From the NCBI GenBank assembly GCA_012845835.1, contig JABAKD010000005.1, positions 1,399,075-1,463,074 on the forward strand: a DNA stretch of 64,000 nucleotides. The letters run 5' to 3'. Positions within the stretch are counted from its first letter, which is position 1. The number at the start of each line of letters is the position of its first letter. Source of the stretch: Undaria pinnatifida. Its lineage: Eukaryota; Sar; Phaeophyceae; Laminariales; Alariaceae. The notes beneath the pieces are model-generated. The model was not told the DNA's origin and did no database searches. It was given only the letters and a program-made list of their open reading frames with translations. Both the position numbers and the translations under genes were made by a program. Of the stretch, positions 15,118 through 53,178 are shown one piece after another.

Positions 15118-18100
15118 TCAAGGGCAGAGCTGCTCCACCCACGCGCGACCATAGTTCGGAGAAGATTTGGAGCACTGCCTGATAGCCTCTGCCAGGATGT
15201 GGTGAACCTCGGTTGTGAAGTGCCGCGGGTCCCAGAAGATCCGCCTGTCCGGGTCCTCGCAGACCGTAGCGGACGGGTAGCCCTTCAAGCAATTCTGGCA
15301 AGGGGAGGAGCCGTCGGCGCAGAAGGCACACTCGTCCCGGCATCCGGCGGCCCTATCCCCCTGGAATATTAACACGATTTATTTTTGAGGTGCACACCGC
15401 AAGAAGGGGGAAGGGTAATGTCATCAATTGGAACATTTTTTTCTGCAATTGGATAAGGGTGCGCGGCGTGAGCTGGAACATCGGTCACTAACTAATTGTA
15501 GTAAACGTTTCCAGGAATCAGAAAGCACACCGGAGGAGGAGGGAAGGGTAGCGTCATCAGTTGAATTGTGTTGTTTCTGCCGTTGGACAAGGTGCGGCGT
15601 GAGCTTCGACATAAGGCACTACTGCTAGTAGAGCATTCCCAGAACTCAGTGTACAACGAAGGGAAACTCAGCAGGACTCTTATGCACGACGTCTACTTAC
15701 CTTCTTCCCCTTACCCCCGGCTTAAAAATATGTATCTATAATCCATCTGTGATGCGCCTCGATTCCACCTTCTGCATTTATGATTATGTACCTTGATATA
15801 TATTTTATCCGTACATCGTTTCTTTTAAACTGTGGCTTTTGTTGTATTCTTTGGATTCTGCTTGTTTGGAGGAATGCTGGTGGGTGGTCAACATTGAAGC
15901 TCATGCTGCACCTTCTCTCATGGCAAACGCACGGATGTAAAAAATCAAACGTATTGCGGCATGAAATTCACCTGGGTCCACCCACGATCTCTGTTGGCGT
16001 GCATTTATAGTCGACTTTGAAACGCGTGCCAAGGCATGGGGGGGGGTAACCAAAGAGGTCCCCGAGGAAGGAAATTGATACGACCAGAGTAATAGACACT
16101 TCTGCGCAATTGATATCACGTCATTATCTTTCTCGCCATCCATGACGTAGCTTTCATTCATCCCCCCCCCCCCCCATCCAACGCCCCGTCCTTCCCCACC
16201 ACCCGCACGGTTGCCTAGACCTAGCGCCACGCGTATAGCAAGCCCCTACATACATATGTATGATTAATACGCGCGATCAGACTATCACACACAATCTTGC
16301 AAAGATGAGTTTCGATCAAATCTTTTGATTTCACAGCTGGAGTGTATTTTAATATGATGTGTGACCTCAACCTCTAAAGAACCCTTCCCCCCCCACCCCC
16401 CCCCCTTTTTTTTTTCCCCAGCTCTCTCTTGCTCAAACGCCCGAACCTAATATCGAAATCCGCCAGAGTAGTAAACACCTCCGCGCCCTAGATATCACCT
16501 CATTATCTTTCCAGAGTCATCCATGCCGCTGCTGCAATTCCCACCCCCACCCCGGCCCCCAACGCCCCCTCCTTCCCCATCACCCGCACCATCGCCTAGA
16601 CCTTGCACCACGCGTATAGCAAACCCCTACATCTATGCGACCTAAAGCCCTTTCGCCCCCCCCCTCCCACCACCCCCCGCCTCCCCAACCCCCCCACCTC
16701 CTCGAACACTCCGCCCTCTACTCACTGGTTGTACGACTTACAGGACATACATGATACACTGGTGCATTTTTTCCAAAACTGTCAGATTTGTCCCCTCGGA
16801 GGTCAGATTGACACATATTGAACTGCCCCACCCGTCCCCCCCCCCACCCCCACTTCCCTCTTGATCGAAACCAGGCCCCCACGTCCTTAAACACTCCGCC
16901 GTCTCCTCACCGATCATTATTCGACTTACAGGATTCACTTGATAAACTGATGCATTTGCTTCCACAGCTGTCAGATTTTGTCTCCCTCAGAAACGGGTTA
17001 TATAGTTTCCGCGCACAGACTGACTAACATCACCCTGTTGGCCCTGATAGCTACACTGTAGTTCCAAGGGCAGTCGGCGACCTATATCCTTAATGAGGAC
17101 ACACAACCCGTAAAACGCGCGATCGGAGTATCACGCACAGCTTGCAAAGATGAGCTTCGACAACATGTTCGATCTTTCACAGCTGGAGTGTATAAATATT
17201 TTATTATGACATCTTATGTGAAGGAATTACCTATTATTGAACGCGTACTGCCGACGGCGCTATATGTGAAGCGGCTACCTAGTATGCTGCCGACGGCGCC
17301 ATTGTAAAAGAGTATTACATTAATAGTGTCTTGTCGACGACGCCATATGTTAAAATGTACCAGGTATTGTTTAGGGTCGAGGCGACGATGTCACATGTGC
17401 GATCGCGGTAAAATGCCGATTGATTACCAAGTAATGAGTCCAGGATAGCAAGCTTTAAAAACCGCCCGACCTATGTTTGCACGTATCAAAGGCGTAAGGT
17501 TTTTCAGATGTGCAAGTCAAGTTCATCAACGGTGTATGTATGGCAGCACTGGCCACGCCGACCTCGAGCCGACCTCGAGCCACCCAAAGGGTTGGGATTG
17601 GGGTATAAAGGCAAGGGTCAGGGCTAGGGTTAGGGTTAGGTGCGGGGTAAGGTTGGTCCAGGCACCACACACGTTTTGTGCTGACTTGCATCAGCGAGCC
17701 GCCACAAACATAGTCCATGTCGCTGATGCTTTGACGTGCAAATCTGAAAGTCTTGAACGTACGTGCGACTACACGACAACTTGCCTTGCAACACGTAGCT
17801 TACACATACGGTATCAGGTTACCTGTGCGTCCCCGTGATATCTGACGTGTAGTCCACAGGGGAACGCAGGTTCAGACAGGGAGTACCCAAGAATGATTCC
17901 AGCGAAAAATTCATATAGATATATGTATGTGGAGCAGTTGCCCACCCTACAGGTCGGTGTTGGTCACCCCCGAACGTTCAATTTAACGCCCCTGGGGCAT
18001 ACCAAACCGAGTGATGAAGGTTTTTAGAGATCGAGCAGTAGTCAATGGTGGTTTGATATGCACTGTCGTATACGGTAAAGTGTCTTACCGGCGACGGTGC

Positions 18101-21100
18101 TACTTTTCTTCTACTGAGCTGACGGCGTAATAGCACCGATCGACGTTCCCAGCCCGGGGGGAGCCTTGGAATATAATAACTGACACAATACGGTATCAGC
18201 TTACCCGAGTTCCCATGATCTCCGACTGTTCGTCTATCGTGAAGTGGAAATCGAGGCAGGGGGTACCCAGCGATCCTCCCGGGCTGGCGGTAAAACCTAG
18301 ATCCTCGAATATTTCAGGCTTGTCGACCAAGGCCTGACGGCAACACGACACAAAGTATGGGGATGGAGGAAGATTAGCGAGAGTAGGAGGAGAGGCAGGC
18401 GGTACACCCGGTACGAATAAGGCGATAAAAACTCGTGCGAGCGGAGCGGTAAATCGCAGACGGTAAAGAGAGTTCGCACCCTCACGATGGGGACAGGATG
18501 GGGACAGCATCATCAGTTGGGACTGGTCGACCAAGGTTCCGAGGGGGGTTGTCGAACGCAACAAGAGGAGAGGCAAGTGCTCCGAGCGATATGCACAGCG
18601 TGAGCAAACTTCAAGCAAGACAAGCAGGAAACCTCAGAGGGCTATACGGTAGAGCTCGCCCTTGGTTCAAGCACAACTTTCACGTCGTATATCTGGGATA
18701 CTTTTTCAAGCTGACCGGCGAAGGCCTGACAGAAGGTTGGCAAAAGCGAAAGGCGATGCATGGGGCTGGAAGGTGTACGAGGGTGGTAAGAGGATGGAGA
18801 CGCGTTTGAAGACAGGAGGAGGGGATTGTTTCCCTTGTTTTTTTTTCTTTTGGGAACGTTTTTTGGGAATTATCGACGTCGGGGCTCGCGTCTTGCACGT
18901 TGTCGGATATCCCCCCTTTTTTTTAAGCAAGAAGAGAAGGAGATTGGCAAGAGTAACGGGAAAGAAAGAAGAAGACTAGAGAAGGGCAGCAGTCTTAAAT
19001 CAGGACGCTACAAGGGTCGGACTATATCAGGTAAATGACAACAGAAACAAGAGATACAGGCGGTACAGGCGATATACGTCGGGCGTTGAAAAGTCATGCA
19101 AGAGGGGCAGGAAAGATCGGGGGTTTGCTCGTCTCTCTCTTTCGTTCTTGTCTCTTTGTTGTTGTAATTTTTGCCAGCCTTCAACGTAGAACATGGGCAT
19201 CAATGTCGATCGTTCAAAACCAAGGGAAACTCACAAAAAAAGAACAAAACCTATGCACGAAATCTACTTCCCTTACACTCAAACAATTTTTGTTTTGGGA
19301 GTCTGAGTACGGATCCCGCAATTAAATAAGGCTTCGCTTGACTTTCAAAGCAAGAAAACAATCTTGGTCGCTTGGCTCCCAAGCTCTCTCTTGCCTCATT
19401 GTTAGGCTGATGCCTCATTGTTAGGCTGACTCTACAACGGTTGTGATAACTTACCGCACTCAAGGCGTACATGTCCAGAACCCGCACTTGACGGTTAGCT
19501 TGAGCTATCTCCGCTGCAGCAGCCCGCAATTGGAGGGATACGAGGTCCAAAGTGTCGGCGAGCCCGGTGTCGATCACATCCTGACAAAACAGCGGCATCA
19601 TTGGAACGGAAGGTGTTTGTGCAACTAATCCTTCAACTACGTACGTCAGATTTAAAAAAACAAATAAACAGCGTTGTCATTCAAAACCGGAGGCGATTGT
19701 ATATTTCGCATGAGTTTAAACTACCTCAGCTTGAGTTTGATTAATTGAGGTGTGCTTGACACTCAGCGTTGAATCGGGTACCATAATCGGGACGGCATCT
19801 ACGCCACATTGTCGGGGGACAACACACGAATGAGACTGTGTACTCATATCACAGCATGCATGGGACACCGTAGATGGGATGCCGCGGTAGGGAAGGGTCT
19901 ACTCACCGCATGCATACCCAGTAGACACTACGAGACGCTGCATTATTATCTGCGAAGATGAAGTACAAGTATGGGAATCGGCTAGTATTTGATAAGTGTG
20001 TTTAATGTCGAAAAAATTATCAGCACAAGAAAAAAGCGTCGTTTTTTTTCTTGGGGTGTCCACAATTTCTATGGGTAGCGTTGGGGTAGGGGTGGTTTGG
20101 GTCAGCGTTAGGGTGAGGGTTGGGTTTAGGGTCTAAAGTGTGTTCCCGGCAGTTTTAGGTTTTTCTTACTCCTAATACTGGAAGCACACGTGGGCCAAGC
20201 CAACTTCCCCGATTTTTTTTTCCATTCTGTATCCTAAATACTAATTCAGAAGTGCGGTAAAGGGGGCTCTGCATACCCGTATAGAAGTCGCATGCTCCGA
20301 CAAGGCCGGGACGGAGCACGGCCACTTTTCACCGACCAGGTAGACGTCGGGTGCACCTCTAGCACGAAGCGCCGTGATGTGATCGGTGGGTCACACAAAC
20401 GGTGAGGGTGTATCCACTTGCGAGGCGGACTTCGGCACCTTCTGCGAAGTTTTCTTGCATAATAAGCTCGCACGGTTGTTGGGGTACGATTGAGCAGAAA
20501 ATGTTTCGACTGACCCCGCTCCTCAGCTCAGGAGGTACGGAATACATTCATTTTTGGCATATTGTCAAAATATTACAGTATTACTATGGTGTTTGGCGCT
20601 TGCGTTCTGCCATGAGGGTAGCACTTTTTCGTTGAAATGCTTTCGGAGTGACGGTGTATTTTAACCCGATATCACGATAGGACGATATCACGATACCACG
20701 ATATGACGATATGACGACATGACGATTGGACGATTGGACGATATGACGATGTGACGAAATAAATGACGATATGACGATTGGACGACATATATGACGATTG
20801 GACGATATACATGGCGATATGACGATATAACGAAATAAATGACGATATCACGATTGGACGATATATATGACGATTGGACGATATGACGAAATGACGATAT
20901 GACGAAATGACGATATGACGAAATGACGATATCACGAAATGACGAAATGACGATATCACGATATATATATGACGAAATGACGATATGTATGACGATTTAT
21001 ATGACGATATTTTGAAATGACACATGCAACGGTAGATGTGCGCCGGTTCATTTCTGCGGCTCTCCTCGCTCGAACTTCTCTTTACCCGACCGAAAATCTG

Positions 21101-24100
21101 ATTGTTGGAAAAAAATGAAAGCGCTACCCGACGGAAAATAAATCCCATTGCCTAGGTATACGACAAAAAATAATGTAGCGAAACAAGGACGACATTCCGA
21201 CGATTGTGTTCAAAGTATTTATTTGTAGTATTTGTAGTAATTGTAGTATTTTATATTTGTAGTATTTGTACCATTTGTACCATTTGTACCATTTGTAGTA
21301 CTTTATTATTAGTAGATACAGATTAAGGAGCCTCGTCTTTTCGAATATAAAATAGCCAAAAAGTGGTGAAACTTATCACCTATTATTATAAAAAATGAAA
21401 ATACACTCCAGCTGTGAGATCGAAGATTTCGTCGAAACTCATCTTTGCAAGCTGTGTGTGATACTCCGATCGCGCGTATTACGAGTTGTGTGTCCTCATT
21501 AAGGATATAGGTCGGCGACTCCCCTTACAACTACAGTGTAGCTATCAGGGTCAACAGGATGATTTTAGTCAGTCTGTGCGCGGAAACTATAAAACCCGTT
21601 TCTGAGGGGGACAAAATCTGACAGCTGTGAAGGGAAATGTAACCTTTGATCAAGTGAATCTTGTAAGTCGAACAACCGGTGAGGGGGGTGGGGCGGAGTT
21701 TTGAAGGACGTGGGGGCCTGGTTTTGATCAAAAGCGAGCGGGTTTGGAGGGGGGGGGGGGGGGGGGGGGGGGAGGAAGGGGGCAATTTGTGCATGTAAGC
21801 TATAAATCTTTTCGAGGGGATAAATCTGACGGTTTTGACATCAGTATATTATTGGGGGCGGGGGGGGGGGGTTGGGGCGGGGGGGGTTATATACCTATAT
21901 CGTAGCACTTGTCATATCGTCGAAAATTTGTCCTTGTTTAGCAACATTATTCGCTGGACTGTATGTCTAGGCCGTGGGATGGGTCATCGCGGTTAAATAC
22001 CAGCTGCACCCCGGTCGAAGTAGGCGTGGTTTGATTATCATCAAATCAACATCCACCACAGCTTCTTCGCTAACAACAACAGCCGTTTTTCGAACATCTC
22101 TTTGTGTTAGCTAGATATTAATATACTACAGTGACATATACCACTGGTGACCATACCCACCAGGCAGAAGTCAGCCTTGCCTGCTAGCTCAGCGAATACG
22201 CTGTATCTTACCAAGGCTGCGGGATTATCGTGATGTACCCCGCCCAGTTCTCACTATCGAGTATAGTCCACTCGCGCGCGAACGTGGACCTCTGCATCTC
22301 GCTCAAAATGGGCTAACACAGGTTTTGATAACGCAGCTTTCAACAAATATTGCTTGACGGTGGTGCGTATTGTGAAAACGAAACGCATGGTATGTTACGG
22401 TTGGATAAAAACGGCGCAACCATCACCATTGCGGGCCACAAAAATGACACGTGCCAAACCAGAGTAGCCGTGGCTATCTCTAAGATAGACACGGTCTGGA
22501 GTCCGTTTGGCTGTCGTTGACCCTGGGCGTCAGCTTTACTTCAACTGTAGTATTCGATGTAATATACCTCGAGCTTTCTTGCCCATGAAATTGTTCAAAT
22601 GATTTGGTAATCGTCGCAATGGTCGACAACAGAGGGCGCCCGCTCCTGAGAAATGCGCCCTAAATAAAATGAGGCTTGTTATTTTTCTTTCGACAAATGA
22701 GAAACTTGAGCCGAAGACGGGGCTCGGGGTATGGCGCCGTACTAAACACCGTATCACTCCTCGTAGACAGCACCTCGATTTTTTTTCGTCACTTCACGTT
22801 TTCGGGTGACAATAGGAATAACAATGATAGTAGCCTGTGCGAAATGCTTGCCACAGAATAACCAATTCGATATCGACGGCAAATCGCAGGTTTCTCCAGG
22901 CTAAACAATTTATGCACACTCACGGGTATCCCCCTGGCGGATGGCAAGCTGGCGAGAAGAATCCTCCCAGTCACCCCGCGCTTAATTAGCCTTGCGATCG
23001 CTGCTTTCCAAGCGCCGATGATTTCCTGCGACATCCGGGGGAGGGCACATTCGTCGTGGGGCTGTGGTGAAATCTTTCGTTGTGTCAATCTATCCATCTG
23101 TGTCTTGTCTATATAATATCCGTCAGACTGAGTAAGCCTGACGATCGCTGCATCCTAAGCGCCGACGATTTCTTGCGGCATCAACCAAATAGAGCCCCCT
23201 CTCCCTGATCATCGGCCCAAAGGACGTTGCCGGAGCTCCGTCGGTGAATTTCACGACGTTCAAAACAAACGGGTCCTCTCATCCATCCCTTCCAACATTT
23301 TAGCGAGTAATCCGCAAAGCAATGGCCATGAACCAGGCTAATTACCCCATCGAATCCTCACAATCAACCAATCAATCTATAAAATCCGCTCAATCAATCA
23401 ACTAATCAGCCAACCGACCAACCGTTCAACCAACCAATGAATCAATCAACCAACCAACCAAGCAATAAACCGGTCAAGCCCAACCAATCACAATCAACCA
23501 ACTAATGAACTCATCATACCCACACGATCAACCTCACCATCAATCAAGCAACCCATCAACCAAGCAATCCTCACCCTGACCATCGGCTCGAAGGTAATTT
23601 CCGGTTTGCCGTCGACGGTTTTGAAGACCATATCAAAATCAACCGGGTCTTGGTAGCCATCCCCTCCGACAGAATAGCGAGTAAATGCATCAAACAACCG
23701 AAACGGCTCGTTGCTGCCAATCAGAATGATGTGCGTGTGATCTGTATACCAGGGAAGGTACGACGGGATTACGGAGGAACGGACAAGCGCACCGTGCGAT
23801 GTTGGTGGGGTGTACTGTACGGATGTGTTGCTACAGAAGCAACAGCATAGTAGGGTAACCACCCCCCTCCCATCGTGTAGCGAGTAACTACTGAATCTCA
23901 ACAACGCGCCCGACTCGTTGACATCGATGGCGATGATGGCTGTGTGGTCAGTACACTAGATATAGGATGAAATCACGGAGGAGTGAGCAAAAACACGGTC
24001 TGATATGGTCCTGCCCTATCGTAGTATTGCCCATCTTACTGCACCGCCGTCGTTGAAAAGGATACGCCAGATGAGAGGTTTGCGAAAGACATGCAGATGG

Positions 24101-25325
24101 TGCCTTGCCCGTGTAGGCACAATTCGGCGCGGGTCGAAGATGGAAGGAAACGTTATGAGTCTCTCCCACGAACAAGTATGTGACCCCGGATACATCTATG
24201 TTATAAAAATCAGAATACACTACTCCTGCTGTGAGATCGAAGATTTTGTCAAAACTCATTTTTCCAAGCTGTGTGTGATGCTCCGATCGCGAGTATTACT
24301 GGGTGTGTGCCCTCATTAAGTATAGACTATAGGTCGACAACTTCTATTAAAACTACTCACCACACGAAAAAAGAGGGGGCAGGAGAAAACGTGCAAATAT
24401 TCGTAATGGAGTTGGGACGAAAAAAACTAGTGGTGGTATGGTTTCCGCTTGGTTTTTCTCTGCTTTCTCGATTGTTCTATGGGGGTGGTCGACAATGAAG
24501 CTCATTCATGTCAATACCCAGTTTTGTCCACTTTTCATGATTTTAACCCTATCTATCAAAACGAGTAACAACAGAAATAGTTGCAACAAATTTACCATTA
24601 TAATGCCCCAAACAATGACAACATACATGACAACAGCAACGAGATATGATCGCATGGCAAACATATTTAAAGCAAAAAAAAACATATCGAAGTCAGGATA
24701 GTGGCTTACCAAGAGTTGCGTCCGTGACTTCGAGGACATCCTTTTCGTACCGGAAGACCTGTTCACGCAGCGTCTGCGGAGACATTGCGGAATACCAGTA
24801 GCGCCGATAGCAGGGGACAGAGGGCAACACAAACCCAGAAACGCAAGGAGCAAGGGACGGGGGTCAATGCAAAAGCCGCCTCACCGACAGCAGGGTGTGG
24901 GCGTGGCATATAACCCAGTAACGCTAAGAGGAGGGGATGGGGGCCGAACCAAAACACGTAGTAGTGCCAAATTACAAAGGGGATGAGGGGCAAAACTAGG
25001 GACAGGTTAGGTTATTATATAATAGCTTCAATCGTCAGGTTTGTCCCCTTTGAGAATTTATAGTTTCCGCGCACATATTGAAATGTCCCGCCCCCCGCCC
25101 CCCCCCCCCCCCCCTCCCCTCCCCCTCCACTGACCTCTTTTTCATAACAAACCCCAACCCTTTCCCCCCGCCGCCCCTCCGTCCCCCGATCCCCCCCCCC
25201 CCTTCCGCCTAGTCTGTCCAAACGCCCCACTCACAATCAAAATCGGCCTGAGTAATAAACACCTATACGCAGTTGATACCACGTCATTATCTTTCTGACC
25301 ATCCATGACGAAGGTTTCAATTATT

Positions 25326-25356
<31 letters not shown>

Positions 25357-39240: not shown

Positions 39241-40314
39241 TGCAAGAAACACCCAATAGCACACGAAGGCTACAATAGTGCACGTGTTGAAGGAAGGAGC
39301 ATTAACTATCTCCCTCTGCGAAGAGCCCAGCACAGCTGCTCTAGGGTGGGAAACAGAAGAAAAAACACAGGAAACACGACGGCAAAGAAGCTCGCAACAA
39401 CACAGCAGAACCAAGCAATCCCTCCAGAAAAAACCCAGACAGATGTGCCTACGCGCGCTCAATAATGGAAACTACAACAGAGCCTCGTCCTCAAAACCCT
39501 TAGCAGCTGCTCCTATGTATGTTGCGCGGTGTCCCCCCAAGCGCACGCAATTCTTCTTCAAGGCGGGTACAATACACCTGATACGCAATCGCGCCACAAG
39601 GCTTGTCGCGAAAACCGCAAGCTGACTTGGACATAACAAGTCGTGTTTCACTACCAAACAATGTATAACGCCACCAATCGTCGGGTGTGTTGTCGGTTAC
39701 GTTATAGTACTAAAGAGAGGAAAGAGGAAGGGGAATTCGCTGTAACCCCCCCACTTAGCGCACATATACCCCCATGACACAACCGCTACACGTTTCTAAC
39801 AGTGATGGAACTCCCACGGCTAACCGTTTCCACTCCCTTCCTATCGAGATGACCCTCGCACCTTCATTGTAAGAGCCTCCCTAAAGACTACAGACGAGTT
39901 CGCCCCATATCCTCATGTCGAAAACACATGCACAGGTCCTCCGTTACTCTCTACGAAAAACGCCCCAACAACACGGTACAAAACCCATACTTCTACCTAC
40001 CTTGGCGCGCGTGCGCGCGACGTGCTCTGCAGTAGCCGCGATAGTTACCACCGTAGGGGGACGTAGACGGCTGAGCTTATACCCTACGCAGGTTTGTCGA
40101 TAAACTTCTGCACAGTATTTCCATAGGACAGAGAGTGTCGACGCACTCTGCTGATCCAATTTGTGGGAGCCTCTGGATCACACTGCCTTACAGCACATCT
40201 GTCACCGTTTTACGAAATCTGTCGGTGAAGGGAAGCGTGAATCTCGGACAAAAATATTTATCCGGTACCTCCCAGATAACGCTGGACTATTGAACACCAT
40301 AAAATCAGTTGCTA

Positions 40315-40455: not shown

Positions 40456-40659
40456 TTTTGCACACAACAAACTATATTGATACTATGTTTTCAATTGTAT
40501 CCTTCCTTGTGTCGAGAAGCCATGAAACGTTCGTTCAAACAAAATTGCTTGTTTTGGGGGGGGCTATCGCGGTAAGAATCAGTCACCGGTAACGCTAAAC
40601 AGAAGCACACTCTTGGGCCTGTCTGGTGGCTAAGCCTGGGCCTCATATGCACTCCAGAG

Positions 40660-40930: not shown

Positions 40931-41254
40931 CTACTCGCTCGCGGCCTAACAGTGCCCCCCTCCATCGTACCCTTGGCCTTCCCGCCCCCTCCGTCCATTC
41001 ACCTTCAAGTTAGAAGGTAGCAGGGACTGCTAGCTCAGCCTTTATAGTACACCACTAAAATAACAGCTCGCCACCCTAAGGGTTCGTCTGGCGGGCAACC
41101 CTTCTTCCACTTGAAAAAAAGCTTATTCAACATTGATTCGAAGTAGCCTGTCCCCCGAAAGCGAGGAAGAACTGGTAGAGAGGTTAGTACTGAACCTACG
41201 ACTTTCCCGACGGGCTGTTACCGCTCCCGTCTTACACGTTTGCAGGGGAAATGC

Positions 41255-41365
41255 TTTTCACCCTCGGCTGATCATGATTCGGATCGTCTTTGGTGCACTA
41301 CCATGTAGCATCTGCCAGGTCTTGGCGAATGCTGGTGGCCAAGAGAAAAGTGTCTCGTCAGCCAC
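41255..41365 (-). pseudogene. Decayed copy of SGNH-B exon 10
   Basis: About 60 bases downstream of the SGNH-B stop codon. The minus strand keeps TTCGCCAAGACCTGGCAGATG, then 'GTGCACCAAAGACGA', aligned with the 'H-Q-V-L-A-D-A' and 'QCSKDE' coding bases of exon 10. Frame and the catalytic Asp-His are lost. Confidence 0.65.
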
Positions 41366-41428
41366 GGTGTCGTTGCGGTGGGAGGTGGGCTGGGGTGCTG
41401 CATGACGTCGGTCGGAGATTGCTCTGAC

Positions 41429-44400
41429 CTACACGTCCATGGGGCAAAGTATCTCCGCCCACGGCGTATCGTAGTTGGGCTCGTCTTTAGAGCACTGCCT
41501 AATAGCATCGGCAAGGACTTGGTGAACGCCGGTGGTGAAGTGAAGCGAGTCCCAGAATATGTACTTCTCCGGGTCCTCGCAAGCCGTAGCGGACGGGTTA
41601 CCCTCGTAGCAGTTCTGGCAAGGCGAAGTCGAGTCTGCGCAAAGGTCACACTCCCCCTGACAACCTTCGGCACGCTCCGCCTGAGAAAAAATGGGCAAAC
41701 GTGTGATCTTGTTGTCGTTGTCGTTTACTCCGAAGTAGATTCTTGAGACACGGCAGGGGAAAATCTGGACGAAAAGTACGTTATTAGCGGGTCTCCGAAC
41801 CCCCAAACGCTACGGCGGGTATTGTACAGTGCTGCAGGACAGTACTTATGTTCGCCCTCGTATCATATCCGCTCTCTCGAAAGGTGAAGTGGAACCTGCA
41901 CAGACGTCACGCCCCCTCCCTCCCGGCCGCGATTAGCACTGCCTCCAAACACGCCTGCGAAGGTGTGTGCCACCTGCTACACCTTGTACACGTCATCGCT
42001 GCTTAGCCTTGTTTCGATTACGATATTATTGTTTGCATTTACTTGGGGCATAATTGGGCCTTTTGAAACAGCACAAAAAATGTAGCATCCTTTTTTGTTG
42101 AATACGTTTTGTTTTGCGTCAATTCTGTTTATTCTTAGGAACACCTTAACAGACAAAACTGAGCTAAATTCAACTAAAAAGCACGTACGGCATAAAAAAA
42201 CTAAAAACACACCTACGTCCTAAAAGTATAGAAAACTTATCACCGTTTAGGCCGAAAGGAGAAACATGAGTCACCTGGATTCCCATGACCTCAGCGGCTG
42301 TGTCGATAGCAAAATCGTACAGCAGACATGAGTCACTCAAGGATGCTCCGGAGCCACCAGTGATGCCCACATCGAAGAACACTTCGGGATAGTCAATGAT
42401 GGCCTGGCAGACGGTTTCAACAAAGGGAGAACAAGGCCAGCAGGCGAATCAGTCGCCACTCACCAATTGGATGCTTGGTACGATACCAATAAGCTATCAT
42501 GTTTAAACAATTTCAGTGGTCTTGCTACCATACGAATACAGGAACTGACTGGGAGTGGAGCAGTAAACTATTTAAAACATGTAACACTGCAGTCCATTAT
42601 AATACTTTTTGTGTTCCAGAAGTGGATGAAAGTATGCCCCGAATCAAGCACCGATGCCCACGTCGGAGAAAACACCAAGGCCTGGTAAACAATGGCCTCG
42701 CCGAAGGTCATCAAGGGGAAGATATTAAGGAAATCTGGCGGGTCATTCAAAACTCAACAACAGGATACATTAGCAATAAGCGAGCAATGCACATCATACC
42801 AGGAACACCCGATACCATAATTATTACGTTATTAAGTGAAACATCCAGCGATACCAGTATTATGGTGTAAGAACCAGCTTTCGCTTAACGTGGGAGAGGG
42901 TGGTCGACGTAAATTAATTCGCGCTGGTTAAACCCATAAATCTACTCCCACGATGAAGGAAGAACGCATACATACACGCAGCATAAGTCTCAGATCGGAT
43001 CACTCATAGATGTCTTAAGCCGTTGCCAAGTAGGCCCGCTCGTCCAAGCTGTCCCCGGTGAGGACGTGGATTAGATGCCTGTCGTCCACACTTGAGGCAA
43101 GGCGTGGACAGCCTGCTGATGGCTTATGCTCTCTTGGATTGTAGGACTGTGAATGTCTCTTTAAAACCACAGCCATGCACGGTAAGGGACGCACTCTTGC
43201 TCTACCGTGTGGCATGATGCGCAGCTGCTGATGAAACACGCCTCTTTGCGGTTTTGGGACGCGCGGGTCAATGCTCTCAAGATTACCGGCCATTCATGGC
43301 AGTGATTTCACCCCCAACTTACCGTAGCATGCTGTGTAACTGCCGATGAAAATTATGCTTTGCGTGTAGGGATGCGAGGGCGTCTAGAAGATTTTTACAC
43401 GACAACGACTACCCCCTCCCCTCCTCCCTGGATAAGGCATGCACCATCGACATAACTCCCGGCGGTGAGGCTGCAGATGTCTGTATGGTTAGCATTTGAG
43501 GGGTAGCGCCGACTAACAGCTGATGAAAGATGCTGACCGATAGCTCAAACGTTTTCTTTGCAGGAAAGCATTGAACGGTAGCACAGCAGTTGCGTTATAC
43601 CTTTATCAATCGCACATTCTCCAACCCGGCCCCTGGGGTATCTATCCTATAAATATGCCGCTGTCAGTTGCCAGATAGGCTGGGGTTCCAACCTCACCGC
43701 GGTGTGGCTGTACTTGTCTATGTTCCACACATTTGCGGGTGGTGTCGACCAACGCCTGATGAGTCATATCCTCTTTTGTATTGCAGGGATGAGAAGGTAT
43801 ATTGTCTCAAGCGAGGCTAGTTGAACACGAAAAAATAATACCCCCTCCCGCTCGGATAAACTGCCTCCGCTATCTCCTAAACTCACCGCGGTGAGGTTGT
43901 AGAAGTCGATGGCCCGCACTTGGGGGTAGGCGTCGACCAACTCCTGATGAAAGATGTTCCCTGCGATGGCCACCTGATCCAATAAATCACCCAGTCCGCT
44001 CTCCGCGGCACCCTGCAAAAATGGTATCACGGTGCAAGCAACGGAAGCATGGAAACACGCGTTGCGCTGAGGCATTTACGCTAGGGGGAGGCACGCCCAC
44101 GTTTGCTGAGGGGGACACATGCTGATAATAGTACCAATAGCGCGCTATTCATACACAAGCTTGGGTAGTGTGCGCAGTCCTTCATGGCTATCCGCTAGGG
44201 CAAAAACAGTGCCATCGGGGTAGACCAACACCGACGTGAACTCTCTAGCGATACACCGTGATACACACTCCACTCACGGGAAAGCCTTTGGGCGATGCCG
44301 AATTGGCGAGTAGGATCCTGCCCGTCACTCCGCGTGCAAGTAGCCTTTCGATCCCCTCCTGCCAAGCGGCGACGACTTCCTGCACCATAGAACACGGGTA

Positions 44401-47400
44401 TTCGGGGGATATGTAGCGTAAGCGGGCAGTGAGGGACACATGCCACTAGTAGTGCGATGATACAAGTGCACTCGATCGTTCTGAAGACCCTTTGTTAATC
44501 GTTCATTCAAAGAAACGCTACCACCAACGGTATGGGTGGCGGGACATCCCTCTATAGTGCGGTAGGGGTTGAACGCACTTTTTGGGCCCAACGTTTGTGA
44601 GCAGTTGAGCTCCTCAAGCGTGGAGCTAAGGGTTGGCATGTAAAAATTACGCGTAGGTTATGTTTAATAGGACCAGCGCGGAGAAATGCGGGTCGAGCTT
44701 CATGAACGAGTTATTTTCTTCGAAGTCTTGGCGCGAAATATCGGAATATTTTACGTTACGAGCTCAGAATGCAACCCAAGCGTGGGATGACCCAGAGATT
44801 TTGGGGCAGCAGTATATGGCGAAGCCAGTTTCCAATTTCGTCGGAATTCCTTCCATTTTTTGGTTGTGTAGGGACACTGGTTGTGCTGGATGTAGATGGC
44901 TGGAAATGGAAATGTCAGTTTATTAATGTGAAGGGTACAACCATTCTGTATGATCGGAGAGTCGATGCTTGAATTCAAGATGTAGATGAATGGATGAGAG
45001 GATGGATGAATGGATGGATAGATGGATATGTGGATGGGTGGATGAATGGATGGATGATTGGATGAATGGACCAATGGATGAATTGATGAATGATGACTAA
45101 ACGACTGAAACGAACGAACGAACGAGCGAACGAACGAGCGAACGAACGAACGAAGAAACGAATGCATCTACATAACTGCATGAATGAACGAATGGACGAG
45201 CGAAATAGTCAAGGGAAATATGAATGAAGAATACATGAATGAGTTTGTCAACGATCAACCCTCACCCTGATCATGGGCTCGAAAGTAAGCGACGGGACCC
45301 CATCCACAATTTCGAAGACGTTTTCGAATGCAACCGGGTCGACGTATCCATCTCCCCCAAGCCCGTACCGGTTCAACGCGGCCAGCACCCTGCCCGGCTC
45401 GTTGTTACCTATCACGATGACGTGCGTGTAATCTGTCCACCACACAAGGCATATCCAGGACATGCAACGACGAGTGGGATATAGCGGGTGCTTGCAAAGA
45501 CGGGCGAGCACGGGTAGTCACTGACAAAAGCCCGTGAGCTCGCTGGACACCATGGTTAGCGAATAATCGGATGGCGGAGCAATGGCTAATTCACTGCCGT
45601 GCTACGTACGATAGATGTCGCACGTTTCCGGCTAAACATTTTCGTTATCGACGAGGCTCCTTAGCCAAAAATGGTTGAAAGCAAAAATTGGCATTAGTTT
45701 GTGTGTTGCATTACGTTTTTTTGTATACCCAGGCTGTAGGCCGTATACTTGTTTGGGCATCGGGTTGCGCATCCGTTTTTACCAAACCCGAGGTTTTAGA
45801 CGGGGTATTGGGCTTCTCATGCGCGCGGAGCCTCAAAAAAGGAAAGGGTTCAAGTGTGCCGTACCATGTGTCCGCTGTTGCCTTTGGCGCGTTTGTAGCG
45901 GCAAGGTCATTCCAAACAAAAAAAATGCGCAAACTTGGCTGGTGGTGTAGTTTTTTAAAGGTAAAACTAGCAAATATAAAACATTGTCTGAATTTCGGGA
46001 CTCCTTAGCCCTCCATCGCTGGAACGTCACTTTTTTTTTTTCATTTTTTTTGTTTTGATTCACACCTAGGCCCCCTGAGATTATTTATATCGGGTCGCAC
46101 TTTCATCTTTACCGAAACGACATCTTCAGGGTGGTACAGAGCTCGTCATCAAGTGATCAACGGCAGAGAAAAGATGTCGCACATCCACACCGCAGCTTGC
46201 GTCGGATGCCGCTAATGTTAGCCCAATATTAGAACATTTTGGGGAGCCCTACGTCTGGGCCATGGGGTTCTGTTCATCGGGTTTCCTTCTCAAATTTGTC
46301 CCAAAACAAGGTTTTGGGGGGAGACATAAGAGCTCCCGTTCGGGGAGGACCGATAGAAAGGCGAGTGCACCGTGTTATCAAGGCGATGCATTCACCCAGG
46401 ACAACAGGTTGTACAATGTCCTGTACTGTAGTGACGGTGTGTACCAGTCAATATTCCCGGCAGTTTAGCGGACACCGCCACTACTGTTGTTGTACAATAT
46501 ATTTTTCACTACAGCGGGTGCGCCCCGATTTGAGAGCTTCCAGGATCAAAGCATTCGGGACTTAAGACGGGTCAAATCGGCATCTATGTCCCGCCTAATA
46601 CCAAAAACTACGTATTTTCCATTACAGATGAGATCAAGGTGTATTTAAGAGCGCTTGTTTTGGCTTGTCTTGTCACGAGGCGCTCTTGAATTGGGATGCC
46701 CACTGACCCGCTGCAATGAGAATCGCGGGTTGCAGTCGTGCCCAGTGAATTCGCTGTCACCATTCAGGCAATAGGCACCTAGCAACGCGATATAGGGGAT
46801 ACGCCCACCGTACTGCTCTAAAGGTAGCTCACCGAGGGTTTCGTCCGTGTGGTCGAGGACATCGCTGATGTACCGAGTGATTTGATCGCTCAAAAACTGC
46901 GGAGAGATATGGTGGCAAGCGGCAAGCGTCAACACGGGGGGGGGGGGAGGGGGGGGAGGGTCACAAAGAGAGGCGTAAACGGTAGTTATGGTTTCATCCG
47001 GGCTATCGAGCGCATCGCGGAAATACCGAGGGATTTAGTTACAAATCATCACTTTTGCGAAATAAGAATATGCCGAATCCGACGGTTTGGGTTCTCTTTG
47101 AGGTCCACTTACATAGACCAAAAACGAGAGATTTTTCGATAGGACATCCGCTGTCCAGGAAACGCCTGCAGCAAGTACGAGCACTAGAACGCGATGCGTG
47201 TGGTCGTGCAGCTTCCACCTTCGCACTTTGAGCACACCCCCTTGCCGGCGTTCCGGGCTGCTCCGTGTGACCGATTCTGGAATCGCCATTTTGTTTCCGT
47301 CTTTTTGATCCCTCTAAATTCCAAAAAAAAGGGGCTAAATAGTGCCCGTCATTCAATAAACCTTTTGACCAAAAAGCGCTACCTCTCTAGATATCGTTGC

Positions 47401-50400
47401 ACGGGTGTATGGGTGTATGGGGTGAGGCCGCGTGATACAATAGAGGAACGCCCCTTTCTTTCTGAGGCTCTTCGATTTGCGAGCGCTAAAGAGCTCTCCC
47501 AAAAACTGATCTCGCGAATCACTAAACCGCTACAGGATGACAACTCCCATATGGCCGAAGTCTACAACGATAATCATGCATTAAAAATGGCCTACGAGTA
47601 TTATTTATTTTTTTTCCGACGATTTTGGGATAAGGAGCCCCGTCATTCACAAAACATTTCACACCAAAACTGCCACTACCTCCATCGTAGCAAGCGCCAG
47701 GCCGAGGGTAACACCACCCTCGTTTTTATTTCCGAGATGAGGTCACCCGCGCGACCGGCGATTTGCCTCACTCAACACCTGAGTGCAGACAACATACCAT
47801 TTCTTCGCGCAGCGCGACAAGCATTCACACCACGCGGTGGAATTGGCAAAACCGAAAAGCGCAAAAAAGAGGCCCGAAAAGTGCCCAGACCCCCCTGCAC
47901 TACGTTTAGTGAATGAACGCCTCACATAGTGGCAATATCGTACGGCACCCACGAGGCCGTTGCTTAGTGATACCCATTACTGTTTTTGGAGCGGCCACAT
48001 CAGAAAACAAACTAACTCATTTTCGCTGTGATCCTCAATCAGGGACCGCTGCTACGGTGGGGGGGTACCCCCTTTCGGGCACTCTTGGTTTCGGTCGCTC
48101 GGTGTCGCTCGCGCGAGTGACCCCCCTGTTCATTGCGGCTTTCGTGCTCTTTTGACCAAGGCTACGTTAGGGGGGGTACCCCCATTTTCACTGGTGCGTT
48201 TAAAAATGGTTTAAACACTTGTTTTGGCGCAGCTTAGATCACCTTTGCATTGCGGATTGATTTCGTCAATGTAAAACTTGAAAAAAACGCAAGATCCCAT
48301 AGGAACGAAGGGGTTACTCGCACGAGTGACCCCTAGCCACTGAAACAAGAGGCCCAAAAGGGGACCCCCCTACCGTAGCCTGGGTCTTTTTTAAAATTCT
48401 CGATAGTTATACGAAAAGGGATGGTTACGTAGCTACGCTACACCAAAAACATCACCGAGCGTGTTTTCATCAGAGGTACAGAGTCACTGGCGAGAGTATG
48501 ATAGGATGATGGTGTGATAGCATGATAGCATGTTAGCATGATATCATGATAGCATGATAGTACGATAGCATGATATGATATGATATGATATGATGTGATA
48601 TGATATGATATGATATGATATGGTATGATATGATATGATACGATATGATAGTATCATAGCTCAGGCCCAGTGGTGAAAGTTGGGGGTAGCTGCCTACCGT
48701 TGGTCCAATATAGTACTAGGCATAAGGTGCTGAAGTCCGTCTTACGAGCGGTTCTTGGAAGGATGCAGTTCACCCCTCATGCGACTCGCCGAACACCTCA
48801 CGGTGCTTCGCGCTTGGTGCAAGAAATGTCTGCCTAGTTGGTGAAACCCGACGTGCTCCGTCCCGGCATAGCAGGGATGCGAGGGTCTATGGTCATACGA
48901 CCACGGCCACTCCAAAACTGAGTACACCCCCCCCACCCCCTCCTACGTTTTTTCGGGGAGGGCGTACTCAGATTGTGCAAGGCCGTAGACGTGAGACCAT
49001 ATTGAGTAGCCCCCAACGTGTTTAGCCCTGTAGGCCTGTAGGTGTAATGAGTCGTCGTACACTAGGGGTGCATCGGATTCTATGCTAGCATGAGGGGTCA
49101 ACATCACCATCGTCATCATCATCACCACCCCAAAACAATGACTTCGAAGACAGCATTCGCTCGGGCAACCCGACCAGCTTTTCTGTGCGCGCTAGTCCGA
49201 TGAATGCTAATAATATACCATACTAATGCTAGGAGAACGTTGACCAAGGCTACGGTAGGGGGGGTACCCCCATTTTCACTGGTGTGTTTGAGCCACTCGC
49301 ACGAGTAGCTCTGTACCCTAAGGATGAAGATGGTTTAGGTACTTGGTTCGGCGCAGCTTAGATCACCTTAAACATTGCGGATTGATTTCGTCAATGTGAA
49401 ACATAAAGAATACGTAAGATCGCATAGGAACAAAGGGGTTACTCGCGCGAGTGACCCCTAGCCACTGAAATAAAAGGCCCAAAAGGGGACCCCCCTACCG
49501 TAGCCTGGGTCCGTTGTCACACACTGACCCGAATGTATACACACTTGAGGAGAGCACAACCGATAACAGGAACATACCAGTTAAACTACCTACCAGGGTA
49601 ACAGGGTAACAGGGTAGCAGGGTAACAATACTTGACAACCAACAGGGTAACAACGTAACAAACGTCACAGACGTCAGAAACGTTTGGCCCAAAAAATACG
49701 AAAAAAAGCCCCACCGTGGCATGACTCTAAGCGAAAATGATGCCCCTGGCGTGTGTTATCTCACCCCGGTGGGTAATTTCTCTCCTTCCCCGGTGTACCC
49801 CCCGCAAGTGTCGAGGTCGCGAAATGTCTCCGATGCCGAGGCTGAGCTCGTCGCGAAGTTGTACTCCTGTGCACCGTGATATCATCAGGCGGAACAGAAC
49901 GACAACATCAGACATGGCACTACAGTCATCTATAGTGCCGGTTGCCCGCTATAGTGCCTGTGAAACCTCCTGAAACAGAGTAGAGTATGTGTACGTTCAG
50001 TACTGCGGGTTGCCGCTATAATAATGATTGCCGGCATAGTGCCGGTCTTTAAGGCTGGCATATATCGGCACTATGGAGAGATCACTGCCACACAAGAACA
50101 TCAGACACGACGCCACCCCAGAAGGACAGATGAGCAGAGTGAGTAGTATATGTACGCTCAGTACTGCCGGTTGCCGCTACAGTGCCGATTGCCGGTATAG
50201 TGCCGGTCTTTAAGGCTGGCATATGTCGGCACTATGGAGGGATCACCGCCACACAAGGACATCAGACACGACGCCAACCCGTAAGGAGTCAAGGACGGCA
50301 CAACAACATTAGACACGGCCAGCCATGTGGACTGAAGATCCAAACCGGGTTAAACAAGTTGGAGTTGTCGATGATATATGCTTGTCGCGAAGTGGTACCG

Positions 50401-53178
50401 CTGTCCACGACAACAATACAACGTAATACACGAAGGACACAGCAACATTATTCGCCACGCCTTAGCGCCACTAGACGCGATCGGCACACAACACGGCAGA
50501 CAAGGTACTGCCCGACTACCAGGCACGGCCCTTATGACAACAGCACCGGCGAGGGAGGGAAGGTCTGGCATGATGGACACATTGGACTAGCACTCTGGGA
50601 TATGCTTGTCGCGAAGTTGTGCTCCAATATCACATGCTGATAACATCATAGATGACCGTCATGCATGACCGGGAATAGCAAGAACATCAGGGACGTCCCA
50701 CCATAACAACGCGACTATATACGATCGACAGAAAAACGACCATGCAGAGGATATATAGCAACTTCATCAGGTTATAACACATGCATGACCCGTACAACAC
50801 TACAGTGGCGAGGAGGAGGTGTCTCACATCACCGGCATGTCAGGTTATACTTTGGGAAGTTCTTTGACGATTTTCGCACCCACTACGGCATGCGGAAAAA
50901 CCAGAAATAATGAAAGCATAGCCACAGGTGGAATTACACGTCTAAGCCCTACGTAAACCCTACTCTATAGCGGCACTTAACCATTTTGGTTGGATAGCCG
51001 TGGACGTGCAACTCACCTCGGGCACGCGGAGCCAGGAGGGCCAAACCTTTCCGTTGGTGGGGGAGCCAGTCTCCGGAAGATACGCTCGGAACATAGACTG
51101 TCGCAAATTAAACCGAAGGCCAGATAGTTAGCTATGCGCGGATGCTACCTCGTGCGGTATTTTCGGACTACCGCTATTCAGCAACACGGCCAGAAAACCG
51201 AAATTTACGTACGTTATGGTACACAGGACCGATCTTTGAGGACAAAACTTTTTGCGAGTTGAGCTGGAAAGCAAAAAAAAAATGATTGGACATGAATGCA
51301 AAAAACGATAGGTGATCGGTAAATGAACTTGAAGAAATTAGCCGTGTAACCCCATGGACACCCAAACAAGTTAGGTATTTATTAAAGAAATAATAGTGTG
51401 AAGACACACGTCGTATTCTAACGATATCGAGTAATACCTCCTCGTCAAGCAGAGAAAACACACGCCCTTTACCATTGCTCCCTTTATCGTCTCACGCCTC
51501 CGTTGCGGAGACCACTGTCTGTCGGAAACGCCTTGGCCAAAACGTGCTACATCCATCTTGGCGTGCCGTAACAGTGCAGCGAAACCCCTATTGGGTGTAC
51601 ATAGCTCTCAGCCAGCCGCGTCGAACAGTCTCGTGAAGCCGTAATAAATAACACTGTGCCATCAATAGCTGCTGCTCGAACACTTGTGGTTGGCGAACAT
51701 TTTTTTTAATAGGACAATACAAAGACTCCATCGTAGCAAAGTAAACGAATGCTTGTTGCGCCGAACTACACATACATCGTATATCGCTCACATCGCTGTC
51801 CGCATCTTCGAATAGTCTCTCGAACGGAAACTTCCCGATGCCCGGGTAGTCGAAGCTCGCGGGGGCGTTGAACCTTCTGCCCGCGTCGGAGATGGAGTCG
51901 CCGAACACGATCATCTATGAGAAAAGGGGACACCAAGAAAGTACTTTGGGGTTAGCCTTGGTCTACGGCTAAAGTCGTGTACACGAAGCGATCGATCGAT
52001 CTGATCTCGAGATGCATCCCGCGGGAAGGGTGTGGCTATAGTAGACAGACTATGTTTCCGACGCTCCCCACTCACTCTAAAGTGGGCTATTTTTTACCCC
52101 GCCCGTACGAAAAATATTCGAGGTAACGCTTACGAATCACTAAGCACTCTTAGTAACCATTTTGCGATTGAGTACTGACGAATGCTTTCTACCATGTTTA
52201 CTTTTGTTGGTACTTTTGTTGCTGTTGCTGATGTTCACCACATGTGACAGCAGCATCCATAGTAGAAGTCATACACTTATTTAAATAATAATTCGTTTTT
52301 GTCAAAACGAGCGTCCGGCGTATCAACGCTCGGCTTGTATATAATATGAGCATCGACTCCAAATTTATCCAACTCACGGCAAAAGCACTTCAAAAACAAC
52401 TTTACATATATATGTGCATTTTTATTTTTATAATATAACAGAAGAATGCAAAACATTCATGCAACCCGACGTACGATTCTACGGCCTTTTTTAATTTTTA
52501 ATAGCTACGTCACCAGTAGGACAGTAGTGAGGGTGTCGCACAACTCGATAAAGAAAATATCAGGTATCGCATTGATTGGCCAAACGGAAACGTCATCCCG
52601 GCGATAATTCGACCCCTTCCTTGAGAAACTATTTTGGCTCTTGGATGCTACCCCTACGGTAAGACGGTTCTAACATCGTCACATCATCTGCGAGAACCCG
52701 GGTTGGAACGTCTGAGCTGTGCGGAACGTCCATTCTCGAGACGACAGTTGCTCTGCAGCAAAACGAAAAAAAAAGTACGCTCTGTCTAAACCGTCTGCCC
52801 ACGTCGAAGGTGGAGACGCCCCAAACACAATCATCTGCGGATAAAAAGAAAAAGGGGGGGTGATTTGTTTGAGCTAGACGGCCCGAAATTTCACGCTATA
52901 CGTCGCGCACACGACGTTCGCTGTTGACATTTGTATCGTATGTTTAGCATCGGGGCTATCACGGAGTTCGGTCATTTAGAAACCTTTTCAGGCAAAGCGT
53001 GCTACATACTACTAATAGTACCGCTATCATCAACTAACTACGAGCTAAAACCGAATTCATCAGTGCAACGCACCTTGGGGTTCACGCGCCATTTCTTGTA
53101 GTTAACCGGCAGCTCCCCGTCCTGGGCTGATACAACGCCAAGGGCAAGGCCAGCGGTAGCCGCCAAAGACAAATGCAT
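41429..53178 (-). CDS. SGNH-B: secreted GDSL/SGNH esterase-lipase-like, 10 exons
   Basis: Exons on the minus strand: 53178-53074, 51914-51792, 51097-51017, 49866-49765, 46896-46833, 45432-45266, 44379-44278, 44012-43887, 42403-42275, 41680-41429. They join to 416 codons plus TAG, fully open. Exons 3-9 have exactly the same lengths as in SGNH-A, with the same intron phases. The start ATG precedes a classic signal peptide ('[18 protein letters not shown]'). Features in order: '[10 protein letters not shown]', block I 'FGDSISD', '[10 protein letters not shown]', block II-like '[10 protein letters not shown]', block III 'IGNNEP', an exon 10 Cys cluster (Cys spacing 3-2-6-2-9, identical to SGNH-A), and block V 'FWDSLHFT'. 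A secreted ester hydrolase of unknown substrate is inferred. The Gly-Gly of canonical block II is replaced by Ser-Ser. Roughly half of residues are shared with SGNH-A, so the duplication is old. Confidence 0.87.
42640..42725 (-). pseudogene. Decayed copy of SGNH-B exon 9
   Basis: The minus strand reads GGCGAGGCCATTGTTTACC, then 'GTGTTTTCTCCGACGTGGG' and 'CATCGGTG'. This aligns with the '[13 protein letters not shown]' coding bases of exon 9. The frame is shifted and the 3' half is weak. It lies in intron 8. Confidence 0.6.
43160..43290 (-). pseudogene. Exon 8 relic 4 (SGNH-B)
   Basis: Reads '[18 protein letters not shown]' then 'PLPCMAVV', against '[18 protein letters not shown]' and 'FYNLTAV' of intact exon 8. 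It lacks the first ~18 codons. It lies in intron 8. Confidence 0.65.
43310..43390 (-). pseudogene. Exon 8 relic 3 (SGNH-B)
   Basis: Minus strand 'CGCAAAGCATAATTTTCATC' then 'GGCAGTTACACAGCATGC' and GGTAAG. This is the weakest member of the array, recognised by its phase with the neighbours and the retained donor-like end. Confidence 0.45.
43450..43575 (-). pseudogene. Exon 8 relic 2 (SGNH-B)
   Basis: Reads '[19 protein letters not shown]' then 'SAASPPG', parallel to '[19 protein letters not shown]'. The exon is 2 bp longer, so out of frame, and the donor GT has become GG. The first half of the exon is deleted. Confidence 0.72.
43698..43787 (-). pseudogene. Exon 8 relic 1 (SGNH-B)
   Basis: CATCAGGCGTTGGTCGAC and the end CACCGCGGTGAGG are nearly identical to exon 8 (CATCAGGAGTTGGTCGAC, CACCGCGGTGAGT). 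One extra base breaks the frame. The same 5' deletion as in the other relics is present ('TGCAATACAAAAGAGGATATG' replaces the first half). Confidence 0.78.
44560..44640 (-). repeat. Short dispersed repeat shared with 63160-63250
   Basis: The minus strand reads '[17 protein letters not shown]', and 63160-63250 (plus) reads 'LTLEELNPPETLGPKSA'. The conserved frame suggests a fragment of some coding element, origin unknown. It lies upstream of exon 7 in intron 6 of SGNH-B. Confidence 0.5.
44985..45165. repeat. GGATGAAT and GAACGAAC microsatellites
   Basis: 'ggatggatgaat' iterations to about 45085, then 'cgaacgaacgagc' to about 45160. They lie in intron 6 of SGNH-B. Confidence 0.93.
45551..45597 (-). 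pseudogene. Possible decayed fragment of SGNH exon 6
   Basis: 'tagcgaataatcgg...gcaatggctaatt' resembles the decayed exon 6 of SGNH-A at 23290-23330 ('tagcgagtaatccgcaaagc', 'aatggcc', 'gctaatta'). It is short and not conclusive. It lies in intron 5 of SGNH-B, just upstream of intact exon 6. Confidence 0.4.
46980..47040 (-). pseudogene. Decayed copy of SGNH-B exon 5
   Basis: Reads '[15 protein letters not shown]' against '[15 protein letters not shown]' in the intact exon about 90 bases downstream. The acceptor and donor are gone. A poly-G tract (46937-46959) lies between the two. Confidence 0.75.
48154..48386. mobile_element. MITE-B copy 2
   Basis: Starts GACCAAGGCTACGTTAGGGG and ends CCCCTACCGTAGCCTGGGTC, with TTTT on both sides. 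It is shorter than the other copies by an internal deletion near 48200 and inserted in the B2 element. Confidence 0.87.
48495..48655. repeat. GATATGAT/GATAGCAT microsatellite
   Basis: Tandem 'gatagcat' passing into 'gatatgat' units. It sits inside the B2 element. Confidence 0.95.
49242..49511. mobile_element. MITE-B copy 3
   Basis: Starts GACCAAGGCTACGGTAGGGG and ends CCCCTACCGTAGCCTGGGTC, flanked by a CGTT duplication (49238-49241 and 49512-49515). It is near-identical to copy 1 and includes the palindrome with core ACTCGCGCGAGT. It lies in intron 4 of SGNH-B. Confidence 0.88.
49595..49660. repeat. GGTAACA-type short tandem run
   Basis: 'cagggtaacagggtaacagggtagc' and related text close to MITE-B copy 3. 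Confidence 0.8.
49984..50290. repeat. ~155-bp tandem duplication in SGNH-B intron 3
   Basis: The unit 'tgtacgytcagtactgc' to 'acatcagacacgacgcc' occurs twice. Within it the words 'ccggttgccgctat' and 'tagtgccggt' repeat. The same words are seen near 32940-33030 and 59020-59070. Confidence 0.82.
50375..50405 (-). pseudogene. Exon 4 relic 2 (SGNH-B)
   Basis: The minus strand reads TACCACTTCGCGACAAGCAT ('YHFATSI') against TACAACTTCGCGACGAGCTC ('YNFATSS') of intact exon 4. Only the block II core is preserved. It lies in intron 3. Confidence 0.6.
50597..50640 (-). pseudogene. Exon 4 relic 1 (SGNH-B)
   Basis: Reads '[14 protein letters not shown]' against '[13 protein letters not shown]' of exon 4. 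The bases upstream also resemble the intron next to the real exon. The acceptor AG has become TG, so it cannot splice normally. Confidence 0.68.
52780..52834 (-). pseudogene. Decayed copy of SGNH-B exon 2
   Basis: Keeps the acceptor (TCCGCAG) and ATGATTGTGTTTGGGGCGTC, then 'CGACGTGGGCAGACGGTTT', parallel to exon 2. A small deletion in the block I bases destroys GDS and the frame. It lies in intron 1, upstream of the intact exon. Confidence 0.75.

Follow-up and report, generated by a model that had tools for sequence, protein, structure and literature searches.

Exon duplications within genes are said to have been catalogued by Letunic in 2002 and by Gao and Lynch in 2009. For the RdRp gene of potato, a tandem duplication over an intron-exon border has been described (Ma et al., 2016; PMC4974935). 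The Exonize study reported within-gene duplications of full exons in about 4-7% of vertebrate genes (PMC12343006), and the ROCO genes of brown algae are described as a case of LRR exon shuffling, in which whole exons were multiplied (Teng et al., 2024; PMC11378527). Here we analyzed a window of 64,000 nucleotides from the kelp Undaria pinnatifida, which contains two neighbouring genes, SGNH-A and SGNH-B, both on the minus strand, and many fragments of their exons. These relics are very probably the remains of many separate small tandem duplications, the breakpoints of which ignored exon borders.

The two SGNH genes

The spliced SGNH-B protein is identical to the annotated Undaria pinnatifida protein g01829 (HiC_scaffold_5) at 412/412 aligned residues, and our model has four extra residues at the start of exon 7. 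The signal-peptide exon (53178-53074) is followed by nine core exons (51914-41429), the first of which carries what we take to be the GDS motif. SGNH-A begins with a signal-peptide exon at 34377-34258 and continues from 33705 to 15118, with a frame that is open to one terminal stop. None of the 24 proteins found for SGNH-A is a close match, the closest having 63-64% identity, and therefore this gene may be unannotated in Undaria. Three further annotated relatives in Undaria, g01831, g01833, and g01839, are located on the scaffold of g01829. The cut-off of Pfam PF00657 (Lipase_GDSL, 23.6 bits) is passed by SGNH-A with 35.5 bits and, narrowly, by g01829, i.e., SGNH-B, with 24.0 bits. Core exons 2-8 have equal lengths in both genes, and in each gene seven of the eight introns separating core exons are in phase 0. 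Within 60 bases of the exons, the similarity between A and B introns reached raw local scores of just 5-11. The exons are as follows.

53074-53178, minus strand: SGNH-B signal-peptide exon; translation matches the g01829 N-terminus
51792-51914, minus strand: SGNH-B exon 1
51017-51097, minus strand: SGNH-B exon 2
49765-49866, minus strand: SGNH-B exon 3
46833-46896, minus strand: SGNH-B exon 4
45266-45432, minus strand: SGNH-B exon 5
44278-44379, minus strand: SGNH-B exon 6
43887-44012, minus strand: SGNH-B exon 7; first four residues absent from the annotated protein
42275-42403, minus strand: SGNH-B exon 8
41429-41680, minus strand: SGNH-B exon 9, including the stop
34258-34377, minus strand: SGNH-A signal-peptide exon
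33580-33705, minus strand: SGNH-A exon 1
30914-30994, minus strand: SGNH-A exon 2
28123-28224, minus strand: SGNH-A exon 3
24710-24773, minus strand: SGNH-A exon 4
23575-23741, minus strand: SGNH-A exon 5
22924-23025, minus strand: SGNH-A exon 6
19455-19580, minus strand: SGNH-A exon 7
18205-18333, minus strand: SGNH-A exon 8
15118-15360, minus strand: SGNH-A exon 9, including the stop

Dispersed repeats are also found in the introns. A family of about 270 bases, with up to 94% identity, is present in both genes (29126-29393, 48152-48386, and 49242-49511); one copy has 22-base inverted ends, and the family looks like a MITE. The introns of SGNH-A additionally contain dispersed copies of a G-rich family that has long runs of G (16081-17193, 21369-21884, 24201-24356, and 25182-26695), which occurs in both orientations and has internal tandem units of 299 bases.

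Identification of exon relics

The 18 core exons, nine per gene and with the B exon 9 query shortened so as to begin at the annotated start, were compared with both strands of the whole window by alignment, with the coding-strand exons masked. DNA alignment was used because per-exon protein profiles against the six frames were too weak: they were clear only for the best-kept relics, A5 downstream, A8, and B9 (relics are abbreviated by gene and core exon; E < 0.002), and gave E values of 0.05-3 for the remaining relics, amid unrelated matches with E values of 0.9-3 that included one on the plus strand. Each row of the result represents one exon query, and a single relic may yield two rows, for the A and the B version of the exon.

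The relics are real. At a score of at least 18, the coding strand gave 18 rows and the opposite strand none, compared to an average of 0.34 rows (maximum 3) for 100 dinucleotide shuffles, and at a score of at least 17 the respective values were 23, none, and 0.89 (maximum 5). These rows represent 17 distinct relics with a score of at least 17, and a further relic in B intron 2/3 with a score of 15, which is weak by itself, as the shuffles average 6.4 rows at that level, brings the total to 18. Three relics have a score of exactly 17 (at 50624, 33295, and 17889), about one of which might be a chance match by score alone. Every relic is on the coding strand of the same gene, either in an intron adjoining its own exon or beyond its own stop. 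A direct copy within 1.5 kb (score at least 17) was found for 12/18 exons, an inverted copy for 0/18. The signal-peptide exons yielded no relic above background, that of SGNH-A having been searched over the last 90 of its 120 bases. The relics are listed below, with positions within the parental exon.

52789-52834, minus strand: B exon 1, bases 1-44, upstream; acceptor AG kept; flank p 0.09
50604-50624, minus strand: upstream relic of B exon 3 (bases 1-21) with score 17; flank p 0.055
50380-50398, minus strand: another upstream relic of B exon 3 (bases 3-21), weak with a score of 15; AG retained
46990-47036, minus strand: upstream relic with bases 14-60 of the 64 of B exon 4; exception to the half-exon pattern or nearly whole copy
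43698-43762, minus strand: downstream relic of B exon 7, bases 63-126 and the donor
43462-43532, minus strand: downstream relic of B exon 7, bases 57-125 and intron flank
43072-43139, minus strand: B exon 7 (third copy), bases 46-113, downstream
42630-42696, minus strand: B exon 8, bases 1-65, upstream; similarity runs on to 42786
41875-41916, minus strand: possible upstream relic, in B intron 8/9, with bases 26-67 of B exon 9; score 20, no flank support
41233-41354, minus strand: relic beyond the stop with bases 130-251 of B exon 9; offset of 197 bases
40120-40274, minus strand: second relic of B exon 9, bases 100-245, farther downstream; no flank support
33267-33295, minus strand: A exon 1, bases 89-117; score 17; similarity crosses the donor, to 33252
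31207-31240, minus strand: A exon 2, bases 2-35, upstream; copy may be longer
23854-23946, minus strand: upstream relic with bases 3-90 of A exon 5; offset of 202 bases; similarity to 24009
23204-23310, minus strand: A exon 5, bases 58-167, downstream
23128-23172, minus strand: A exon 6, bases 1-45, upstream; 147-base offset
17829-17889, minus strand: A exon 8, bases 65-125; in-exon score 17; similarity crosses the donor, to 17783
14935-15003, minus strand: relic beyond the stop with bases 158-226 of A exon 9; offset of 200 bases; flank unsupported

A sequence-only reading of this DNA had claimed that exon-like fragments are abundant beside their own intact exons; this is borne out by these direct and local relics, whose similarity exceeds that of shuffled sequence. 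Its list of 17 fragments was recovered for 6/6 items in A and for 9/11 in B, including the one with score 15. Two items in B were not recovered by exon alignment, namely, a "weak" relic of exon 6 (core exon 5) and one of four relics of exon 8 (core exon 7). These correspondences presume that its exon numbers are, as it appears, the core numbers plus one, on account of the signal-peptide exon; the list gave no coordinates for single relics. Three relics are additional, i.e., that past A exon 9 (15003-14935), the second of B exon 9 (40274-40120), and that in B intron 8/9 (41916-41875).

Relics are truncated exons

The side of a relic predicts which part of the exon it contains. Upstream relics correspond to the 5' part of the parent in 8/9 cases and downstream relics to the 3' part in 9/9 cases (Fisher p 4e-4), when assigned by the midpoint of the matched part and with the relics of B exon 7 and B exon 3 entered singly, some of which may derive from one another. 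The sole exception is the B4 relic with bases 14-60 of a 64-base exon.

Similarity continued past the exon end in 11/18 relics (p<=0.025) and was not significant in the remaining seven, as judged by anchored extension with 200 random non-exon positions as null. In three of the 11 (the third copy of B7, A1, and A8) the extension starts within the last 4-13 bases of the exon, and for A1 it comprises just about six intron bases. Longer alignments were obtained for B8 (42499-42339 versus 42786-42630), for B9 (41551-41406 versus 41354-41208, spanning the stop), for A5 upstream (23806-23652 versus 24009-23854), and for A8 (18269-18163 versus 17889-17783, spanning the donor). The stop of the anchored extension inside the exon is partly built in, because a local alignment ends where extension fails, and the missing exon part was therefore tested separately. 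Beside the 17 testable relics it was not found with own-gene DNA (p>=0.24 in 17/17). In total, three of 51 tests (own DNA, paralogue DNA, and protein for each of the 17 relics) reached p<=0.05, i.e., B7 with 0.050, B8 with 0.020, and A5 with 0.040. The exon part that is present in the relic had a protein-level match with p<=0.045 in 15/17 cases.

Among the 18 relics there is no certain copy of a whole exon with both splice sites, and two are ambiguous, B4 and A2. The A2 relic could be aligned with B exon 2 over bases 6-76 (43/71) and is possibly longer than half an exon, and its missing part was not significant (p>=0.17). In a rough calculation, which assumes that the offset equals the duplicated unit, no whole-exon copy was observed versus 4.9 of 11 expected (p 5e-4, or p 0.03 minus three long offsets). 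The A5 downstream relic and all exon 9 events were omitted from this test, the exon 7 relics were treated as one, and B4 and A2 were treated as not whole. The depletion is no more than suggestive of selection against whole-exon copies.

Age and decay of the relics

Own/paralogue and codon comparisons were performed with 17 relics, the one at 50398 being left out. At sites where the A and B exons differ, the relics match their own exon 204 times, the paralogue 62 times, and neither 76 times, and most relics are thus younger than the split of A and B. Where the A and B exons agree, so do the relics at 596/762 sites. The differences between relics and exons are distributed almost evenly over the three codon positions (27/24/31%, p 0.086), whereas the control, i.e., the A versus B exons, exhibits a strong bias (26/25/50%, p 1e-14); hence, no coding constraint is detectable in the decay of the relics. 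Splice dinucleotides have been retained at 7/12 relic ends, which were placed by hand; this is near the about six expected from a per-base identity of 72% and approximates neutral decay. A common origin of the exon 9 relics of A and B, which was also considered, found no support, as four sites are changed in both, one of them to the same base, compared to 2.3 expected. The annotated g01829 includes none of the relics, and a duplicated exon was found in none of 27 homologous proteins.

Local tandem duplications in the window

Within 800 bases, 49 direct and seven inverted local repeats with a score of at least 20 were found, low-complexity families included. Thirteen of the direct repeats join an SGNH exon to a relic, 12/13 of them at a distance of 147-380 bases. 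Intron pieces of 120 bases, with exons masked, had a direct neighbour copy in 26/148 cases and an inverted one in four, a count in which both members of a pair are included as well as relic-relic pairs, at least those of the exon 7 relics (offset 237). For intron pieces with a score of at least 18, 20/25 offsets were 110-240. The counts exclude any control piece with an overlap to an exon, a listed dispersed repeat, or a low-complexity sequence. Several duplications lie outside of exons.

30292-30574: young non-exonic tandem duplication, unit 141 bases, 97% identical
49976-50287: non-exonic tandem duplication, unit 161 bases, 88% identical
13628-13843: non-exonic tandem duplication, unit 107 bases, 100% identical, exceeding two units by 2 bases

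A further young non-exonic duplicate has a unit of 59 bases and is 100% identical, and two perfect ones extend 2 bases beyond two units. In the young non-exonic duplicates the copies clearly abut at a defined junction; for the relics, the junctions are putative and derive from the offsets. The offsets of B1 and B3 (920, 758, and 534) are above the usual range, and the A5 downstream unit would overlap exon 6 unless the intervening tandem array grew later. No new intron was observed; the introns already in place became longer. Orthologous DNA of relatives could not be confirmed in the viral or genome contigs searched.

Unlike the gene region, the stretch from 53.2 to 64 kb has direct copies in 0/77 pieces and ten inverted copies, and therefore the duplication process is not uniform along the window. 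The transposon-like stretch from 2 to 12 kb exhibited neither direct nor inverted copies in 78 pieces, and a differently masked repeat scan detected one direct pair there (7498/7682). It contains open frames on the minus strand that, by their motifs, look like those of a copia-type retrotransposon (2057-6912) and, at 10249-11909, also on the minus strand, open frames presumably of a LINE reverse transcriptase. Local copies were found in 0/42 pieces of the 2-7 kb part.

Alternative explanations

The sequence-only reading had left the choice between a repeated local process that copies small exon-bearing segments and an ancestral set of alternative cassette exons that decayed in both genes. Once functional alternative or mutually exclusive exons would explain why the relics adjoin their exons and why some still have a splice dinucleotide, and with seven of eight core introns in phase 0 most whole-exon copies would have preserved the frame. 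However, the relics are half exons without one of the splice sides (apart from the two ambiguous cases), their differences from the parents are almost flat across codon positions, and they occupy different places in A and in B; a similar pair exists only past exon 9, and it has no clear excess of common changes. In addition, they are nearer to their own exon than to that of the paralogue, and the homologous proteins are devoid of duplicated exons. We consider decayed cassette exons very improbable, and this part of the proposal is not supported. The preference for the own exon, based on the DNA of A and B only, and the ordered location of each relic beside its own exon argue against fragments that originated from other paralogues of the SGNH cluster by gene conversion or from broken gene copies, a source to which we give hardly any credence in spite of the three additional relatives on the g01829 scaffold. 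Even less credible is an assembly artefact, in which haplotypes were joined head to tail: a few young non-exonic duplicates are indeed 97-100% identical, but the relic cores are 64-90% identical to their parents, far below allelic identity.

A different question is whether tandem duplication in this genome truly favours exons, or GC-rich coding segments, as hotspots beyond their role as better tracers. At a score of at least 17, a direct local copy exists for 12/18 exons versus 26/148 intron pieces (p 3e-5), and this excess is larger than the approximately twofold one predicted from longer visibility. By reasoning, an exon copy should remain visible about twice as long because only one of the two copies decays; moreover, the introns also hold younger insertions without an old history, and the sample is restricted to 18 exons. 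We regard true hotspots as unlikely. The proposed repeated local process is supported, and acted mostly after the separation of A and B; a single gene duplication would not give the order of the relics, as had been argued. As a refinement of the proposal, the copied segments do not respect exon borders, and the relics, being truncated exon ends, have the form expected of ordinary small tandem duplication.

A model of small tandem duplications and its meaning

We propose small head-to-tail duplications whose two breakpoints fell, respectively, within an exon and within an intron or the sequence beyond the stop. Each would necessarily result in one complete exon with both splice sites and one truncated exon end with a single splice site. 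A unit composed of an intron and the 5' part of an exon would leave the fragment upstream of the parent, and a unit composed of the 3' part of an exon and an intron would leave it downstream. Such insertions need not change the mRNA and could thus drift to fixation and then decay; whole-exon and within-exon duplications would have been purged by selection because they alter the protein. Old duplications, which escape notice when two intron copies decay together, would be revealed by conserved exons. The mutational step may be replication slippage or end joining, and special copying machinery is unneeded for the half-exon pattern.

The contribution of small tandem duplications to intron growth is difficult to see because both copies decay beyond recognition. 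An event in which a conserved exon serves as one of the copies stays legible for longer. Given the side rule and the apparent scarcity of whole-exon copies, it also becomes measurable: the mixture of half-exon and whole-exon copies is a readout of mutation versus selection. If this holds genome-wide, it would offer a simple test for the origin of the long introns of brown algae, as well as a source of the mutations behind the exon shuffling known from this group. Tentatively, and as a possibility that we would not yet call probable, kelp genes may experience a high and lasting rate of small tandem duplications, with conserved exons as recorders. Half-exon relics, with their side set by the surviving class of breakpoints, might then allow counting past duplications, measuring the filter against whole exons, and estimating the intron length built in this way, and the exon arrays in the immune-receptor genes of brown algae may have the same origin.

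Comparison with known systems

A rule relating half or partial exons in introns to one side of the parent was not found among the matches listed from the open-licence literature, as far as titles and the beginnings of abstracts go. The geometry of the duplication described for potato RdRp, a single tandem duplication, is the same as that proposed for each kelp relic (PMC4974935). However, in potato one event is reported to have created a new spliced intron, and the exon piece was kept in the mRNA, whereas the kelp relics represent many events, are decayed, and, judged by the annotated SGNH-B, are outside of the mRNA. The Exonize results resemble the kelp locus in that exon copies, including degenerate ones, lie in introns of the same gene, but full exons are described there (PMC12343006), in contrast to the half exons of kelp without a certain full copy. 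The ROCO genes share the lineage and the recurrent intragenic duplication of small exon-bearing segments; according to the description, whole phase-2 exons were retained and are alternatively spliced (PMC11378527), whereas the kelp relics are half exons in a mostly phase-0 context and were apparently pseudo from birth. Whole exons multiplied and retained in the protein, as in ROCO, were found in none of the 27 homologous proteins. The kind of mutation is ordinary and already known; the density of the relics and their consistent half-exon pattern are what is unusual here.
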